DNA from: an uncultured Pseudothermotoga sp. | GTDB lineage: Bacteria; Thermotogota; Thermotogae; Thermotogales; DSM-5069 | Direction of reading: 5' to 3' | Assembly: GCA_937995655.1 (NCBI GenBank) | Contig: CALKJI010000002.1 | Span: 1-64,000, forward strand | DNA length: 64,000 bases | Shown: in pieces, positions 5,660 to 11,490 of the stretch | Position numbering within the stretch: the first letter of the stretch is position 1 | Layout of the letters: each line of letters opens with the position of its first letter | Notes under the pieces: model-generated | Told to the model about the DNA's origin: nothing | The model's input: the letters and a program-made list of their open reading frames with translations, nothing else | Databases searched by the model: none | Program-made: the position numbers and the translations under genes

Positions 5660-6226
5660 TCAGTTCTTTGATTGAGTCCTGCTACCTGGCTTTACAATAG
5701 GTACTTTTTGCTCGCACAATGGGCAACTTTCAGGCTCATAGATAGGTAGATCTAATTTCAAAAGCGAATAGAAAGGTACATCAAAGGGCAATGGTTGAGT
5801 TGATCTGTCTATGATACTGGCTATACAACAAATCTGCCCACCAAATTCTTTGACAACTTCGGCAACTTCTAAGACAGACTTACCCGTTGTTGTAACATCT
5901 TCGACGATTGCTACTCTTTCACCTTCGTTTATTTGGAAACCTCTTCTGAGCTTCATCACGCCGTCTTCCCTTTCTGTGAACATTGCTCGGGCGTTGAGAT
6001 TTCGTGCAACTGTGTAAGCAACAATTATTCCACCGAGGGCTGGCCCTATCACGATATCTGGTTTGTGTTGAAGTATCTTTTGTGCTATCATTCTACCGAC
6101 TTCATCTCCATATTGAGGGTATTCAAAGATTTTGGCACACTGAATGTACTTTGAAGAATGCTTGCCTGATGATAACAGAAAATGTCCTTGTAGCAATGCA
6201 CCTACTTTCTGAAGCATCTCAAGCAT
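5660..6226 (-). CDS. pyrE: Orotate phosphoribosyltransferase
   Basis: Joins orotate to PRPP to give OMP, the fifth step of UMP synthesis. The 188-aa protein carries the PRPP-binding motif VAIVEDVTTTGKS (residues about 105-117), the GPALGGIIVA loop near 61-70 and FTEREDG, all typical of OPRTase. The C-terminal tail contains CPLCEQ, a Cys pair that could bind metal. Last gene of the pyrC-K-D-F-E operon; its ATG (6226) overlaps pyrF by 8 nt. The operon ends at the hairpin near 5600. Confidence 0.97.
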   Translation of the reverse strand: MLEMLQKVGALLQGHFLLSSGKHSSKYIQCAKIFEYPQYGDEVGRMIAQKILQHKPDIVIGPALGGIIVAYTVARNLNARAMFTEREDGVMKLRRGFQINEGERVAIVEDVTTTGKSVLEVAEVVKEFGGQICCIASIIDRSTQPLPFDVPFYSLLKLDLPIYEPESCPLCEQKVPIVKPGSRTQSKN

Positions 6227-6836
6227 ACATAAACCTCCCTATCATTTCCATTGTTGCCTTTGGATCATCACTCTTATAGACCTCTCTGCCTATGACAGCG
6301 TAGTCGGCAACCTTTTTAATGTCTTCGATGCTCACGACATCCTTTTGATCATCTGCTTCTCTTTTCATTCTTACGCCAGGTACAAGTATCTTGGTCGATA
6401 TCTTTTCTCTCAACTTAACTGCCCAAGTGCCAGGTAGGACGAAAGAACTTCCCAGTTCCTTGAGTGATTCTATTTGGTTCAAGTAGTCTTCAAGTTCCCC
6501 TTCTATGGATGTGAGTTTTATGACAGAAAAAATGATTTTGTCTGTGTTCTCAAGAGCAGCTTTGATGGTTTCCCTGCCTGAAGCGGCATGGACCGTAAAA
6601 CCAACAACACAAGGATGATCCCACGATTTTATCGATCTCACAACCGTAGATGGTATATCGATAAATTTCAGATCTACAATTACTTTGAGACTTCTTTTTT
6701 CAAATTCGCTGAAGACACTCTTGCCATAGACTGCCACACTGTGTCCGATCTTGACATATTCAAAGGTTCCATATTTATTAATGAATCCAAAGGGATCTTC
6801 CATGTCCAAACTTAACACTGGTATCACCCATAGCAC
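6219..6836 (-). CDS. pyrF: Orotidine 5'-phosphate decarboxylase
   Basis: Decarboxylates OMP to UMP, the last step of the pathway. The 205-aa TIM-barrel protein shows the catalytic DxKxxD motif as VIVDLKFIDIPSTV (D55, K57, D60) and a phosphate-binding end GVRMKREADDQKDV. Length and layout match the short Thermotoga-type PyrF. It overlaps pyrD upstream (13 nt) and pyrE downstream (8 nt), consistent with translational coupling. Confidence 0.97.
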   Translation of the reverse strand: MLWVIPVLSLDMEDPFGFINKYGTFEYVKIGHSVAVYGKSVFSEFEKRSLKVIVDLKFIDIPSTVVRSIKSWDHPCVVGFTVHAASGRETIKAALENTDKIIFSVIKLTSIEGELEDYLNQIESLKELGSSFVLPGTWAVKLREKISTKILVPGVRMKREADDQKDVVSIEDIKKVADYAVIGREVYKSDDPKATMEMIGRFMYA

Positions 6837-7651
6837 CTCCCTATGTGCTTTGCTATCCTTTCAACTATATGAGGGTCTTTGTAAATAGCAGTACCAAGAC
6901 TTATGGCATCTGCACCAACTTTGAAAAAATCATCGGCATCCTTTTCGCACATGATACCGCCAGAACCTATCACATAAAGCTCTGGGGCTCTATTCTTGAC
7001 TTCGTAAACAGCCCTCAGTGCGATTGGTTTCAGTATGGGACCAGAGAGACCGCCTTTGAAGACTTTATCATTCACGATTTGTAGTCCCCTAATAGTGTTG
7101 ATGAGAGTTATCCCATTCCAAGCGTGGTCTTTCAAGATCTGAGCGATCTGTTCAACAAAAATGCCCTCGACACCAATCTTGGCTATTAGAAAACCCTTTA
7201 GTACTTTTCTCATATAGATCAATAAATCTTGGAGAGAAGAGAGATCAGAAAGGATGTTTAATCCTCCCTTTTTCACGTTCGGGCATGAAAAATTGACTTC
7301 GATGGCTTCAAAATGATCCTCGTATGGTGCTATCTTTTGTGCAACTCTCTTGTATTCTTGAGCATCGTCCCCTCCTAGACTAAATATCACCTTTGTTTTT
7401 TCAAATAGCTCCTCGTACTGATTGTTGTTCAATTTTTCTATGAAGGCATCTATTCCTACGTTCTCAAGGCCAATGTTGTTCATCAAATACTCTTGAGTTG
7501 CAAAAAGTCTTGGTGGAAGATTTCCTTCTTTGGGAAACAATGTGATTGTTTTCAAGGTGTAAGCACCTATGTATTTGGGATCGATCAACTTCAAGTACTC
7601 TCCCATGCCACCAACACCCGATGCTATGATCAAAGGGGGATTCAATTCCAT
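6824..7651 (-). CDS. pyrD: Dihydroorotate dehydrogenase, catalytic subunit (class 1B)
   Basis: Oxidises dihydroorotate to orotate using FMN; in class 1B the electrons go through PyrK to NAD. The 275-aa barrel has the catalytic-loop Cys in NFSCPNVKKGG, the FMN-site sequences ASGVGGMGEY near the N terminus and VIGSGGIMCEKDADDFF toward the C terminus, and NNIGLENVGIDAFI. GAGGTGATC precedes the ATG at 7651, giving a firm start; it overlaps the end of pyrK by 10 nt. Presence of pyrK next door confirms class 1B. Confidence 0.96.
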   Translation of the reverse strand: MELNPPLIIASGVGGMGEYLKLIDPKYIGAYTLKTITLFPKEGNLPPRLFATQEYLMNNIGLENVGIDAFIEKLNNNQYEELFEKTKVIFSLGGDDAQEYKRVAQKIAPYEDHFEAIEVNFSCPNVKKGGLNILSDLSSLQDLLIYMRKVLKGFLIAKIGVEGIFVEQIAQILKDHAWNGITLINTIRGLQIVNDKVFKGGLSGPILKPIALRAVYEVKNRAPELYVIGSGGIMCEKDADDFFKVGADAISLGTAIYKDPHIVERIAKHIGRCYG

Positions 7652-8295
7652 ACAAGATCACCTCTGAATACGGGCCCGTCAATACAGACGTGTTTAATGC
7701 CTTCTTTGGTTTGAATCGCACAACCACGACAAGCACCGATCCCGCAAGCCATGTATTCGTTGAAAGATATGTAAACCGGTGCCTTTTGGCGCAGTAGGTC
7801 AAAGGCTACTTTCTCCATTTGATCCGAACCCACTACGTAAAACCAGTCATAACCACTCAAAGATTCGAGTAATTCAACAAACTCATCGTTGCCGTAGACT
7901 ACTTCGAATGGTATCTCTGCCAAAAGTTTTTCAACAGAACCTATGAAAACATCACAGTCATACCTCTGATGAAGATCAAAGGCAATTGCAAGACAAGCCG
8001 GTGTTGCTATCATCGCACCTTTTCCAGAAGGTGGAACAAACCCTTTTCCCAAAGGACCATGTACCTTCAATGCCTTTTGTTCAACTATGTACGCTGTCCC
8101 TTTCCCTATAACTTCAACACCTATGGCAAGATCGTTAAACCACTCTCCAAGTGCGAAAGGTTTTCTAACGACTGATGGTGTCTCGATCATGATGAACTGA
8201 GTTGGGATAAAGTCCAGTTTCTCGTTGAAGGTAATTATGAAGCTGTTCTCAGTTACTTTAAGAGTGTTCTTGGTCGTTAAAGAGAAATTCTCCAT
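7642..8295 (-). CDS. pyrK: Dihydroorotate dehydrogenase electron-transfer subunit
   Basis: A 217-aa ferredoxin-reductase-type subunit with an N-terminal FAD barrel (VVRKPFALG is the flavin motif region), a nucleotide-binding middle, and a C-terminal 2Fe-2S site whose cysteines are visible in ACGIGACRGC followed by HVCIDGPVF. It passes electrons from PyrD to NAD. The ATG at 8295 lies 38 nt inside the end of pyrC; a shorter start is possible but the N-terminal strand pattern (FIITF) supports this one. Confidence 0.95.
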   Translation of the reverse strand: MENFSLTTKNTLKVTENSFIITFNEKLDFIPTQFIMIETPSVVRKPFALGEWFNDLAIGVEVIGKGTAYIVEQKALKVHGPLGKGFVPPSGKGAMIATPACLAIAFDLHQRYDCDVFIGSVEKLLAEIPFEVVYGNDEFVELLESLSGYDWFYVVGSDQMEKVAFDLLRQKAPVYISFNEYMACGIGACRGCAIQTKEGIKHVCIDGPVFRGDLVWN

Positions 8296-9388
8296 CCCAG
8301 TACACCCACTTTCCTTTCAGTTTTACACCAACAATCTTTCCTTTGAGCTTGATACCATCAAAAACACAATTTTTGCCCTTACTGTGAAAGTTTCTTACAT
8401 CAACTATGTATTCAGCCTCTGGATCGATCACAGTGATATTTCCAAGATCTAAATCAGTTTCAAGCCCCAAGATCTTTCTTGGCGCTATCGTCATCTTCTG
8501 TATAGTTTTTTCAAGATCCATGGTTATTGTATAAAAAGCGCTAAAAGCCACTTCAATTCCACTCGTCCCATAGGCAGCCCTTTCAAAATCAGAGGTTTTT
8601 TCGTGGTGCGGTGCGTGATCGGTTGCAAAGACATCTATGATGTCTTTTTTGACAGCCTCTAAGAGAGATTGTCGGTCTTTTTCTGTTGCGAATGGTGGAT
8701 TGACCTTAAAATTTGTGTTTTTGATATCCTCCATATTAAAAAAAAGATGATGGGGCGTCACTTCACACGATACTTGAGCATATTCTCTAAGATGTTGAAT
8801 CGTCTCTATTGAAAATTCTGTTGTGACATGTTGAATATGAAATCTTTTAAAACCATATTCTAAACCCAGCATTACATTTCGAAAGATACTGATGGACTCG
8901 CTACTGATGGGGCGCTTTTGAATATTAAGTGGCGTACCTTCGTAAAAAAGTCCACCTACTTCGTAGAACTGACTATGATCCAAAAGCAGGTCTGGTTTTT
9001 TCGATTTGAATGTCCAAAAGATCTTTTGCGTATCGTATTCTATCCCATCATTAGAATAACAAAGAATCCTTTTCCCATCAGGTTCTAATTGGCCAAAAAA
9101 GGAACATGTCCAGTAATAATCGATGATCTTTCCTTTGGCAAGTTCAAAGTGCATCTTAAGGACGTTCTCGGTCTCGATTGGAGGCTTTGTATTTGGTTGA
9201 ATCAGGACAGCTCCAAATCCACCGGCAAGGGCGGCTCTTTCAAGTGAATTGTAATCTTCCTGATCCAACAATCTTACATGCGTGTGTATATCAAAAAAGG
9301 TCGGAGATGCCACAAGACCTTTCTGATTTGCTGGTGTATCTATCTTCATTTCTTGCCATCTTCGTATCACAGGATTATAGATTTTCAA
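8258..9388 (-). CDS. pyrC: Dihydroorotase
   Basis: Closes carbamoyl-aspartate to dihydroorotate. The 376-aa amidohydrolase has the metal-binding HTH of DIHTHVRL (H35, H37), the histidine region HIQHVTTEF, and the C-terminal DHAPHH motif. The start is TTG at 9388: a six-G ribosome site (9396-9401) lies 7 nt upstream. An ATG at 9395 is in a different frame and ends after six codons. First gene of the pyr operon. Between promoter and gene sits a leader ORF and terminator, so expression is probably set by attenuation. The carbamoyl-phosphate and PyrB genes are not in the window. Confidence 0.95.
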   Translation of the reverse strand: MKIYNPVIRRWQEMKIDTPANQKGLVASPTFFDIHTHVRLLDQEDYNSLERAALAGGFGAVLIQPNTKPPIETENVLKMHFELAKGKIIDYYWTCSFFGQLEPDGKRILCYSNDGIEYDTQKIFWTFKSKKPDLLLDHSQFYEVGGLFYEGTPLNIQKRPISSESISIFRNVMLGLEYGFKRFHIQHVTTEFSIETIQHLREYAQVSCEVTPHHLFFNMEDIKNTNFKVNPPFATEKDRQSLLEAVKKDIIDVFATDHAPHHEKTSDFERAAYGTSGIEVAFSAFYTITMDLEKTIQKMTIAPRKILGLETDLDLGNITVIDPEAEYIVDVRNFHSKGKNCVFDGIKLKGKIVGVKLKGKWVYWDGEFLFNDQEHS

Positions 9389-9402
9389 AGTTCATCCCCC
9401 CA

Positions 9403-9437
9403 AAAATTAAAATAAAAGGGGCTTTCTCAAGCCCCTT
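9403..9437 (-). terminator. pyr attenuator (leader terminator)
   Basis: On the minus strand AAGGGGCTT (9437-9429), a GAGA loop and AAGCCCCTT (9424-9416) form a perfect 9-bp stem. It is followed by TTATTTTAATTTTT and then, within 2-3 nt, the pyrC ribosome site. A terminator placed between promoter and first gene is what attenuation control needs. The stop codon of the leader ORF (9427-9429) sits at the junction of the first arm and loop, so a terminating ribosome would cover the first arm and block the hairpin. A U-rich stretch (UCUUUUUG) comes just before it. Confidence 0.85.
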
Positions 9438-9507
9438 CAAAAAGACTCATAGCTATCATCCTATTGAAGATCCTTTCAATTTTTTGCCAGCCTCGCATAT
9501 ACATCAT
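9427..9507 (-). CDS. pyr leader peptide (26 aa)
   Basis: A 26-codon frame that starts with tandem ATGs (9507 and 9504), is preceded by the ribosome site GAGGTGA (9510-9516) and ends in TGA at 9429-9427, inside the terminator hairpin. The peptide starts MMYMRGWQKIERIF and ends MSLFEGA; it has no run of one amino acid, so control by a scarce charged tRNA is unlikely. The design is that of enterobacterial pyrBI and pyrE leaders, where slow RNA polymerase at U-rich sites at low UTP lets the ribosome catch up and stop the hairpin forming (established for those operons; inference here). It is too short to be a structural gene. An alternative is that the hairpin simply ends the upstream ABC transporter operon. 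Confidence 0.7.
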   Translation of the reverse strand: MMYMRGWQKIERIFNRMIAMSLFEGA

Positions 9508-9534
9508 TCTCACCTCTGAAATCCTCAAGTCAAG

Positions 9535-9543
9535 ATTCTATCA
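9535..9543 (-). promoter_or_regulatory. Candidate pyr operon promoter (extended -10)
   Basis: TGATAGAAT on the minus strand fits an extended -10 (TGnTAGAAT). The start of transcription would fall near 9528, about 12 nt before the leader ribosome site. The -35 region is weak. Its place between the ABC transporter stop (9601) and the leader ORF fits a separate pyr promoter. Confidence 0.5.
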
Positions 9544-9600: not shown

Positions 9601-11490
9601 TCATACGTCCACGAGTGCTCCCAGAAATTGGCTCTTGTACAACTGTGCATAGAAACCGTTCTTTTCAAGCAACTCCTTGTGTGTACCTTTTTCTATTATC
9701 CTACCTTCGTTCATAACCAGTATCAGATCTGCATTTCTTATCGTCGACAACCTGTGAGCTATGATAAAACTTGTTCGACCTTTCATCAGCTCATCCATTG
9801 CCTTTTGGATATAGATTTCAGTCAAAGTATCAACATTACTCGTTGCTTCGTCTAAGATCAAGATATCAGGATCTGCCAGAAAAGCCCTTGCGATAGTTAT
9901 GAGTTGCTTTTCTCCGTAAGATATGTTGGTTGCTTCTTCGTTTATGATTGTGTCATAACCATCTGGTAAAGCCATTATGAAGTGATGCGCTTGAGCCATC
10001 TTTGTAGCCTTTACTATTTCCTCTTCCGTAGCATTTTCTTTGCCGTAGGCTATATTCTCCCTTATGGTACCATTGAACAACCAAGTGTCTTGAAGCACCA
10101 TCCCAAAGCATTTTCTAAGATTGTTCTTGTGAATCTCTCTTATATCTATCCCGTCAACTTTTATGCTACCTTTTTGAATTTCATAAAACCTCATCAATAA
10201 ATTCACAAGTGTGGTTTTGCCTGCACCTGTTGGGCCAACAATTGCGATTCTTTGACCGCTTTTGACTTCTATGTTCAGATCTTCTATCAGTGGTTTTTCT
10301 GGAATATAACTGAAATAAACCTTTTCAAAGTTGATCTCTCCCTTCGCCCTGCCAAACCTGATTGCGTCCAATCTTTCTGGTTGTTCTTCTTGCTCGTCTA
10401 ATACCTCGAAAACTCTTTCAGCAGCGGCAATGGTCGACTGAATCAGGTTGGCTATATTCGATATCTGCACGATTGGTTGTGTAAACTGTTGTGAGTATTG
10501 AATGAAGGCTTGAACATCACCTATCGTTATGGCTCTCTTTGTTACGAGAATTCCTCCAACAACGGAAACTATCACATATCCAAGATTACCTATGAACCTC
10601 ATCAAGGGCATTATCATACCAGACAAAAACTGAGCTTTGTAACTGGCGTCACATAAATTTTCATTGATCTTTTCAAATTTCTCGACAGCATCTTTTTCTC
10701 TCAAATAGGCTTTCACAACTACATGACCACCATAGACTTCCTCTGCATGTCCGCTCAGTTCACCTAAATGTTTTTGCTGTCTGACAAAATGTTTTTGAGA
10801 AGATTTTGCAATAAAAATTGTTACTGCAATACTCAAAGGCAACGTCAGAACGGTCACACCTGTTAACAGTGGGCTTATCGTCAACATCATGATCAAAACT
10901 CCAACGACGGAAATGATCCCAGATACGAATTGAACAAAACTCTGTTGTAGAGTGTTGCTTATAAGATCGACATCGTTTATTACACGACTGAGTATTTCTC
11001 CATGAGTCCTCGAATCATAGAATCTAAGAGGCAATTTTGCCAGTTTTTCTGATATATCCTTTCTCATCTTCATGACTATCTTCTGCGAAACGCCTGCCAT
11101 TATATATTGTTGAACGTAGTTGAGTAAAGCACTGACAATATATAAAAGACTGACTTGAATCAATATCTTTGCAACGTAAGAAAAGTTTATAGCTGCATTT
11201 GGTAAACGGAGCACCTTTGCCATAACACCACGAAAGATCTCAGTCGTGGCTCTGCCAAGTATCTTTGGTGCTATTATCGTCAGTACTGTCGCGGTAACGG
11301 TGATGGCAAGAACGATCAATATTGGAACAAGGTAAGGTTTGAGATAGGTGATCAATCTCTTGAGTGTTCCTTTGAAATCCTTGGCTTTTTCTGCAGAGCT
11401 TGATAAGATTGGCCCGCCAAACCTTGGACCTCTTTCCGGCATGGGTCTGAACTGAGGCGTGGTCTTTTTTTCATCTGCCATTGAGTTCAC
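9601..11490 (-). CDS. ABC exporter subunit, TM288-like (consensus catalytic half)
   Basis: A 629-aa fused membrane plus ATPase protein. About 60 soluble residues precede six membrane helices, then an ATPase domain with Walker A (GPTGAGKTTL), Q-loop (VLQDTWLF), Walker B with catalytic Glu (ILILDEATSNVD) and switch His (IIAHRLSTI). The signature is degenerate (NISYGEKQ instead of LSGGQ). Together with the partner encoded upstream, which has a good signature but lost its catalytic Glu and His, this predicts one active and one inactive ATP site, as in Thermotoga TM287/TM288. Its start overlaps the partner gene by 20 nt. Substrate is unknown; heterodimers of this kind usually export drugs, lipids or peptides. 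Confidence 0.93.
   Translation of the reverse strand: MNSMADEKKTTPQFRPMPERGPRFGGPILSSSAEKAKDFKGTLKRLITYLKPYLVPILIVLAITVTATVLTIIAPKILGRATTEIFRGVMAKVLRLPNAAINFSYVAKILIQVSLLYIVSALLNYVQQYIMAGVSQKIVMKMRKDISEKLAKLPLRFYDSRTHGEILSRVINDVDLISNTLQQSFVQFVSGIISVVGVLIMMLTISPLLTGVTVLTLPLSIAVTIFIAKSSQKHFVRQQKHLGELSGHAEEVYGGHVVVKAYLREKDAVEKFEKINENLCDASYKAQFLSGMIMPLMRFIGNLGYVIVSVVGGILVTKRAITIGDVQAFIQYSQQFTQPIVQISNIANLIQSTIAAAERVFEVLDEQEEQPERLDAIRFGRAKGEINFEKVYFSYIPEKPLIEDLNIEVKSGQRIAIVGPTGAGKTTLVNLLMRFYEIQKGSIKVDGIDIREIHKNNLRKCFGMVLQDTWLFNGTIRENIAYGKENATEEEIVKATKMAQAHHFIMALPDGYDTIINEEATNISYGEKQLITIARAFLADPDILILDEATSNVDTLTEIYIQKAMDELMKGRTSFIIAHRLSTIRNADLILVMNEGRIIEKGTHKELLEKNGFYAQLYKSQFLGALVDV

Follow-up and report, generated by a model that had tools for sequence, protein, structure and literature searches.

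A probable leader-translation attenuator before the pyrC operon of an uncultured Pseudothermotoga

Attenuation coupled to translation is the enterobacterial textbook case of pyrimidine gene control, and the PyrR protein is the Gram-positive answer. In the attenuator of E. coli pyrE, the stop codon of the upstream rph/orfE gene lies next to the terminator. The Bacillus mechanism acts through an antiterminator RNA and not a leader ORF, while in the Thermus pyr leader a PyrR site covers the ribosome site of a leader ORF, the translation of which serves as the antiterminator. The terminator of E. coli pyrBI is located inside a 135-bp leader gene, pausing sites pace its transcription, and in this bacterium a terminator is suppressed when a ribosome finishes translation only a few bases away (PMC4824070). 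Read directly from the K-12 sequence, this leader gene, pyrL, is 44 codons long and extends across the terminator, with its stop codon 3 nt short of pyrB.

In this work, a 64,000-nucleotide stretch of DNA from an uncultured Pseudothermotoga sp. (the window) was analyzed together with the rest of its genome and its relatives, with a focus on the leader of the pyrC-pyrK-pyrD-pyrF-pyrE operon (9388 to 5660, minus strand; Table 1). The original prediction had listed an extended -10, the ribosome site GAGGTGA, a 26-codon ORF, a U-rich stretch, a terminator, and the pyrC ribosome site, and all of these parts are present on the minus strand. The terminator hairpin was described as having 9 bp; the hairpin itself was confirmed, but 10 pairs were counted. 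No good -35 was found with the extended -10 TGATAGAAT at 9543-9535; an TGATAAAAT-type element occupies the equivalent place in three congeners (G008, G009, and G010). The locus resembles E. coli pyrBI in having a promoter, a Shine-Dalgarno sequence, a short ORF, a U-rich stretch, an intrinsic terminator, and a pyrimidine gene in the same order. It differs from pyrBI in the genes that are led, here pyrC-KDFE and separately pyrB, and in an ORF that stops inside the hairpin; in addition, the leader peptides and hairpins are dissimilar in sequence, a U-rich stretch is not found throughout the phylum, and PyrR is also encoded.

Table 1. The pyr operon and its leader in the window, with coordinates counted from the first letter of the stretch
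Feature	Coordinates	Strand	Remarks
Extended -10 TGATAGAAT (putative leader promoter)	9535..9543	-	Expected transcription start near 9527-9530
Leader Shine-Dalgarno GAGGTGA	9510..9516	-	7-base match to AGGAGGTGATC
Leader ORF MMYMRGWQKIERIFNRMIAMSLFEGA, 26 codons	9427..9507	-	Stop TGA 9429-9427 in hairpin
U5 run, candidate UTP-sensitive pause	9439..9443	-	Adjoins hairpin
Intrinsic terminator hairpin GAAGGGGCTT-GAGA-AAGCCCCTTT	9415..9438	-	10 pairs
T-rich tail TTTTATTTTAATTTTT	9402..9417	-	Three bases shared with hairpin base
Second frame KGLEKAPFILIFGGMNFENL	9375..9440	-	Frame used by the leader ORFs of relatives through the hairpin; one-base indel
pyrC Shine-Dalgarno GGGGGG	9396..9401	-	
pyrC, dihydroorotase	8258..9388	-	TTG start; NF006840, 609.9 bits, cut-off 483
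pyrK, dihydroorotate dehydrogenase electron transfer subunit	7642..8295	-	Best family match, below curated cut-off
pyrD, dihydroorotate dehydrogenase	6824..7651	-	Best family match, below curated cut-off
pyrF, orotidine-5'-phosphate decarboxylase	6219..6836	-	TIGR01740, above cut-off
pyrE, orotate phosphoribosyltransferase	5660..6226	-	TIGR01367, above cut-off

The layout of these parts and the precedent of E. coli suggest that translation of the leader prevents termination. RNA polymerase would start at the extended -10, transcribe the leader ORF, and then meet the strong terminator before pyrC. A ribosome following closely on the leader ORF would cover the 5' arm of the hairpin, so that the terminator would not form and pyrC-pyrE would be transcribed; with the ribosome lagging or absent, transcription would stop at the terminator. 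The likeliest signal would be the pace of the polymerase over the U-rich stretch, where low UTP would slow the polymerase and the ribosome would catch up, and we infer this step less firmly than the translation step. A leader-translation attenuator before pyrC is very probable. The best explanation as a whole, namely pyrBI-like translation-coupled attenuation that is independent of PyrR at this locus and has UTP pausing as its most likely signal, appears reasonably probable. Control of the pyrBI type, as originally predicted, gained from the wide conservation of the ORF with its terminator, from the divergent upstream genes of relatives, and from the comparison with K-12 pyrL, but lost the stop codon within the hairpin as a conserved element.

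The stability of the hairpin at 9438-9415 (-16.5 kcal/mol, z -4.3) was equalled in none of 200 shuffles and is beyond chance. A Shine-Dalgarno-led ORF reaching the hairpin arose in 40% of the dinucleotide shuffles of the same leader; taken alone, the leader ORF is no better than chance, and it becomes significant only together with its relatives. Among 23 leaders, 18 passed this test against 6.9 expected, with P ~5e-7 if independent, a value that is optimistic because the leaders are phylogenetically related and were treated as independent; the pyrC leaders of the g5/g6 genomes, the ORF of which starts upstream of the tested region, were scored as failures. A natural control with a stricter test was provided by the intergenic terminators of the window and of same-family loci: ATG or GTG ORFs with a Shine-Dalgarno value of at least 5 enter 8 of 11 first pyr hairpins, compared with 0 of 20 other intergenic terminators. 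The four "other" matches of this control are the second pyr hairpins of the g4 genomes.

The chance frequency of the ORF (0.40) would also suit a hairpin that is a mere terminator of the upstream ABC transporter gene, with the short ORF being accidental. The ABC gene lies on the same strand, the gap of 212 bases between its stop at 9601 and pyrC holds the whole leader, and no other terminator-like site was found between them. This explanation is nevertheless very unlikely, being largely refuted by the three congeners that keep both hairpin and ORF behind a divergent upstream gene; moreover, the hairpin ends 27 bases before the TTG start of pyrC at 9388, which leaves no room for an ordinary promoter downstream.

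For the comparison with relatives, pyrC homologues were drawn from 45 genomes of the order and 58 more of the class. A leader ORF that enters or crosses a terminator before pyrC or pyrB is present in all 11 genomes of the family; outside the family, a leader ORF with a terminator was found in 4 of 4 genomes of one second-family genus, in one third-family genome, and in a further two families of the class. Before pyrC, a Shine-Dalgarno-led ORF with a terminator occurs in G008, G009, G010, G002, and the four g7 genomes G022-G025, and a pyrC leader of the same layout in other families of the class (G046 and G097). Before pyrB, where this gene comes first, the combination is found in G001 and G003-G007, and also in G033. 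In the five g4 genomes (L055-L059), two terminators stand in tandem before pyrB, and a single leader ORF spans both and has a stop codon that overlaps the start codon of pyrB. The distance from the ORF start to the hairpin is mostly 50-70 nt across the leaders. All three congeners retain the promoter-like element, the Shine-Dalgarno sequence, an ORF, and a near-identical hairpin. Because the upstream gene is divergent in relatives (G008, G009, G010, G003, G006, G097, and the g7 genomes inspected), the hairpin belongs to pyrC and not to the upstream gene. The conserved short ORF that had been proposed as a check upstream of pyrC is thereby borne out in the form of a widespread leader ORF overlapping the terminator.

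The leader peptides show little sequence conservation, so it is frame and layout that speak for translation. A short leader peptide preceding a terminator is also what amino-acid attenuation through codon-dependent ribosome stalling would require. The original prediction saw no regulatory codon run in the peptide, and none is present in any leader peptide compared; the peptides differ between congeners, and the hairpin overlaps the ORF itself, unlike in trp or his leaders, which makes such stalling extremely improbable.

The stop codon of the leader ORF, TGA at 9429-9427, spans the border between the 5' arm and the loop of the hairpin. The stop within the hairpin is thus present here as predicted, but it is not conserved at pyrC in the genus, a finding that the original prediction had listed as refuting; the leader ORFs of the congeners read through the hairpin and end at the pyrC start or slightly within the gene. 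The sequences differ by one base beside the hairpin, GAA-GGGG in this genome and CAAAGGGG in the congeners, and this one-base indel shifts the ORF into a frame with a stop in the loop; the reading frame of the relatives remains open in the same sequence (Table 1). On this comparison, we take the stop within the hairpin to be a species trait or a sequencing error, and the overlap of the ORF with the terminator to be the conserved feature. Reading through the terminator, as done by most relatives, is also the arrangement of E. coli pyrL.

Every genome of the genus (4 of 4) has a U-run adjoining the hairpin, and in G008, G009, and G010 this run is U4-U5 in a similar position; it is not conserved in G002, G022, G025, and G003. 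A combined U-tract test gave weak results (Fisher 0.013 for runs and 0.08 for windows), and the use of U-tract conservation as proof of UTP sensing was rejected as too weak. UTP sensing, as claimed originally, is no more than plausible, because the congeners share the U-run but the phylum at large does not, and the chances that UTP pausing is the input of the attenuator are about even. Another input to a leader-translation attenuator, such as the supply of ribosomes, the rate of leader initiation, an effect of nucleotides at the short 5' end, or simple growth-rate coupling, would fit a U-run that is not general, an expected leader 5' UTR of only ~20 nt, and the promoter-proximal sequence that is similar within the genus. 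The leaders are, however, repeatedly associated with pyrC or pyrB operons in the class, and two of them occur in this genome, which argues for a pyrimidine signal; an input other than UTP pausing, of the kinds just listed, is judged unlikely.

The search for PyrR suggested with the original prediction did find the gene (NF003549, 226.7 bits, cut-off 138), but no PyrR-binding loop in the pyrC leader. Within the order, almost every genome of the first two families encodes PyrR, whereas the third family does not. The Rfam family RF00515 was searched on the window, the genome, and the phylum; none was found in this genome, and within the phylum the elements are confined to the second family. A covariance model of the binding loop with 42 positions was built from the sites of this second (sister) family; as a control, three held-out pyrC sites were recovered at 5e-6 or better. 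The model finds one strong site in each genome of the family (11/11), in every case over the ribosome site of an NCS2-type uracil permease-like gene. The site of this genome (L270, G000:C5:252880-252921, minus strand, score 1.3e-10) is the only clear PyrR site found genome-wide. With filters off, the model finds no loop in the pyrC leader described here, in the other pyrC or pyrB leaders of the family, or in the g7 pyrC leaders. The uracil-permease loops (L259, L262-L269, L270, and L271) are missed by RF00515. An earlier text pattern, GTCCNGNGAGGC, had suggested a family without a PyrR loop and was rejected, since the covariance model finds sites reading CTCC or CCCC.

Because no PyrR-binding loop was found in it, we take the pyrC leader not to be a PyrR element of known type. 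It shares with Bacillus PyrR attenuation the pyrimidine operon, the terminator, and an encoded PyrR, and differs in the lack of any RF00515 match in the genome. In an alternative scheme, PyrR with UMP would bind a diverged site at the leader start and block leader translation, so that the terminator would form. The PyrR gene of this genome would allow such control, and there are models for it in the sister family: in the g5/g6 genomes inspected, the PyrR loop lies in the first codons of a pyrC leader ORF of 68-83 codons (MVNLVQRGQN...) that crosses the terminator, and in g7 genomes the loop is carried by the Shine-Dalgarno sequence of the purE leader. Against it, the model that detects the uracil-permease site of this genome and the held-out pyrC sites finds no loop here, the g7 pyrC leaders lack the loop even though the same genomes carry it at purE, and the leaders persist in genomes devoid of PyrR, as in G033, G046, and G097, where the pyr leader is kept and no PyrR scores above the curated cut-off. 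PyrR input to this pyrC leader is accordingly judged unlikely. The preferred reading, attenuation independent of PyrR, does carry a cost: because the PyrR system sits at the uracil permease, one must further assume another pyrimidine sensor that is unrelated to it.

The Thermus layout matches the g5/g6 pyrC leaders and the g7 purE leaders of the sister family, unlike the pyrC leader of this genome, in which no PyrR loop was found. The pyrC leaders starting with MVNLVQRGQN and bearing a PyrR loop (L035, L036, L037, L065, and L066) are from Fervidobacterium-like genomes; a preliminary view of the g5/g6 pyrC leaders as lacking an ORF was rejected, the ORF of 68-83 codons starting further upstream. 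In L074-L077 (g7), the PyrR loop on the Shine-Dalgarno sequence of the purE leader ORF is followed by a terminator, an apparent case of a purine gene under a pyrimidine regulator.

We propose tentatively that the Thermotogota have kept a single output module, in which a ribosome translates a leader ORF overlapping a terminator before pyrimidine genes, and have exchanged the input: in some genera a PyrR loop would cover the start of the ORF, and in others sensing would be free of PyrR and rely on the NTP-dependent pace of the polymerase, even in genomes that retain PyrR for a uracil permease. Such a change of sensor from one sister genus to another, with the leader-ORF output retained, would be unexpected. 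If true, pyr attenuation of the E. coli type and of the Thermus type would represent two states of the same design. An enterobacterial layout in a deep-branching thermophile phylum, within the same order as versions of the operon with PyrR over the leader ORF, would form a natural series with a changing sensor and a constant actuator, and the pyr leaders make transcription-translation coupling in Thermotogota directly testable. A literature search, mostly of papers outside subscription, found no description of such pyr attenuation in this phylum.

A second leader lies at a separate locus of the genome, before pyrB, a PyrB-PyrI fusion gene. Its leader ORF and terminator (L134, G000:C10) lie ~120 nt upstream of the start of pyrB (79205), and the pyrB homologues of G008, G009, and G002 have the same design (L134-L137 with this genome). 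The hairpin is unrelated in sequence to that of pyrC. As a weakness, the pyrB leader ORFs of this genome and of G009 lack a good ribosome site. Both have a U5-U6 run ~20 nt before the hairpin (U6 at about 18 nt in this genome), similar to the U-tract of E. coli pyrBI, which is 22 nt before its hairpin.

Other arrangements occur before pyrB elsewhere. Fervidobacterium-like loci (L138, L140, L143, and L144) have a conserved short hairpin of the GTCGGG...ACCGAC type ~40 nt before pyrB, without a terminator. The pyrC leader shares with E. coli pyrE a ribosome ending at or near the hairpin, and differs in its dedicated short leader ORF, which replaces an upstream enzyme gene. In Thermotoga-like loci (L147, L149, L150, L152, and L156), the gene before pyrB ends inside the terminator hairpin CGCACCGTTAGGTGCG, and this placement of the upstream gene's stop is closer to the E. 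coli rph-pyrE arrangement than is the pyrC leader of the present genome.
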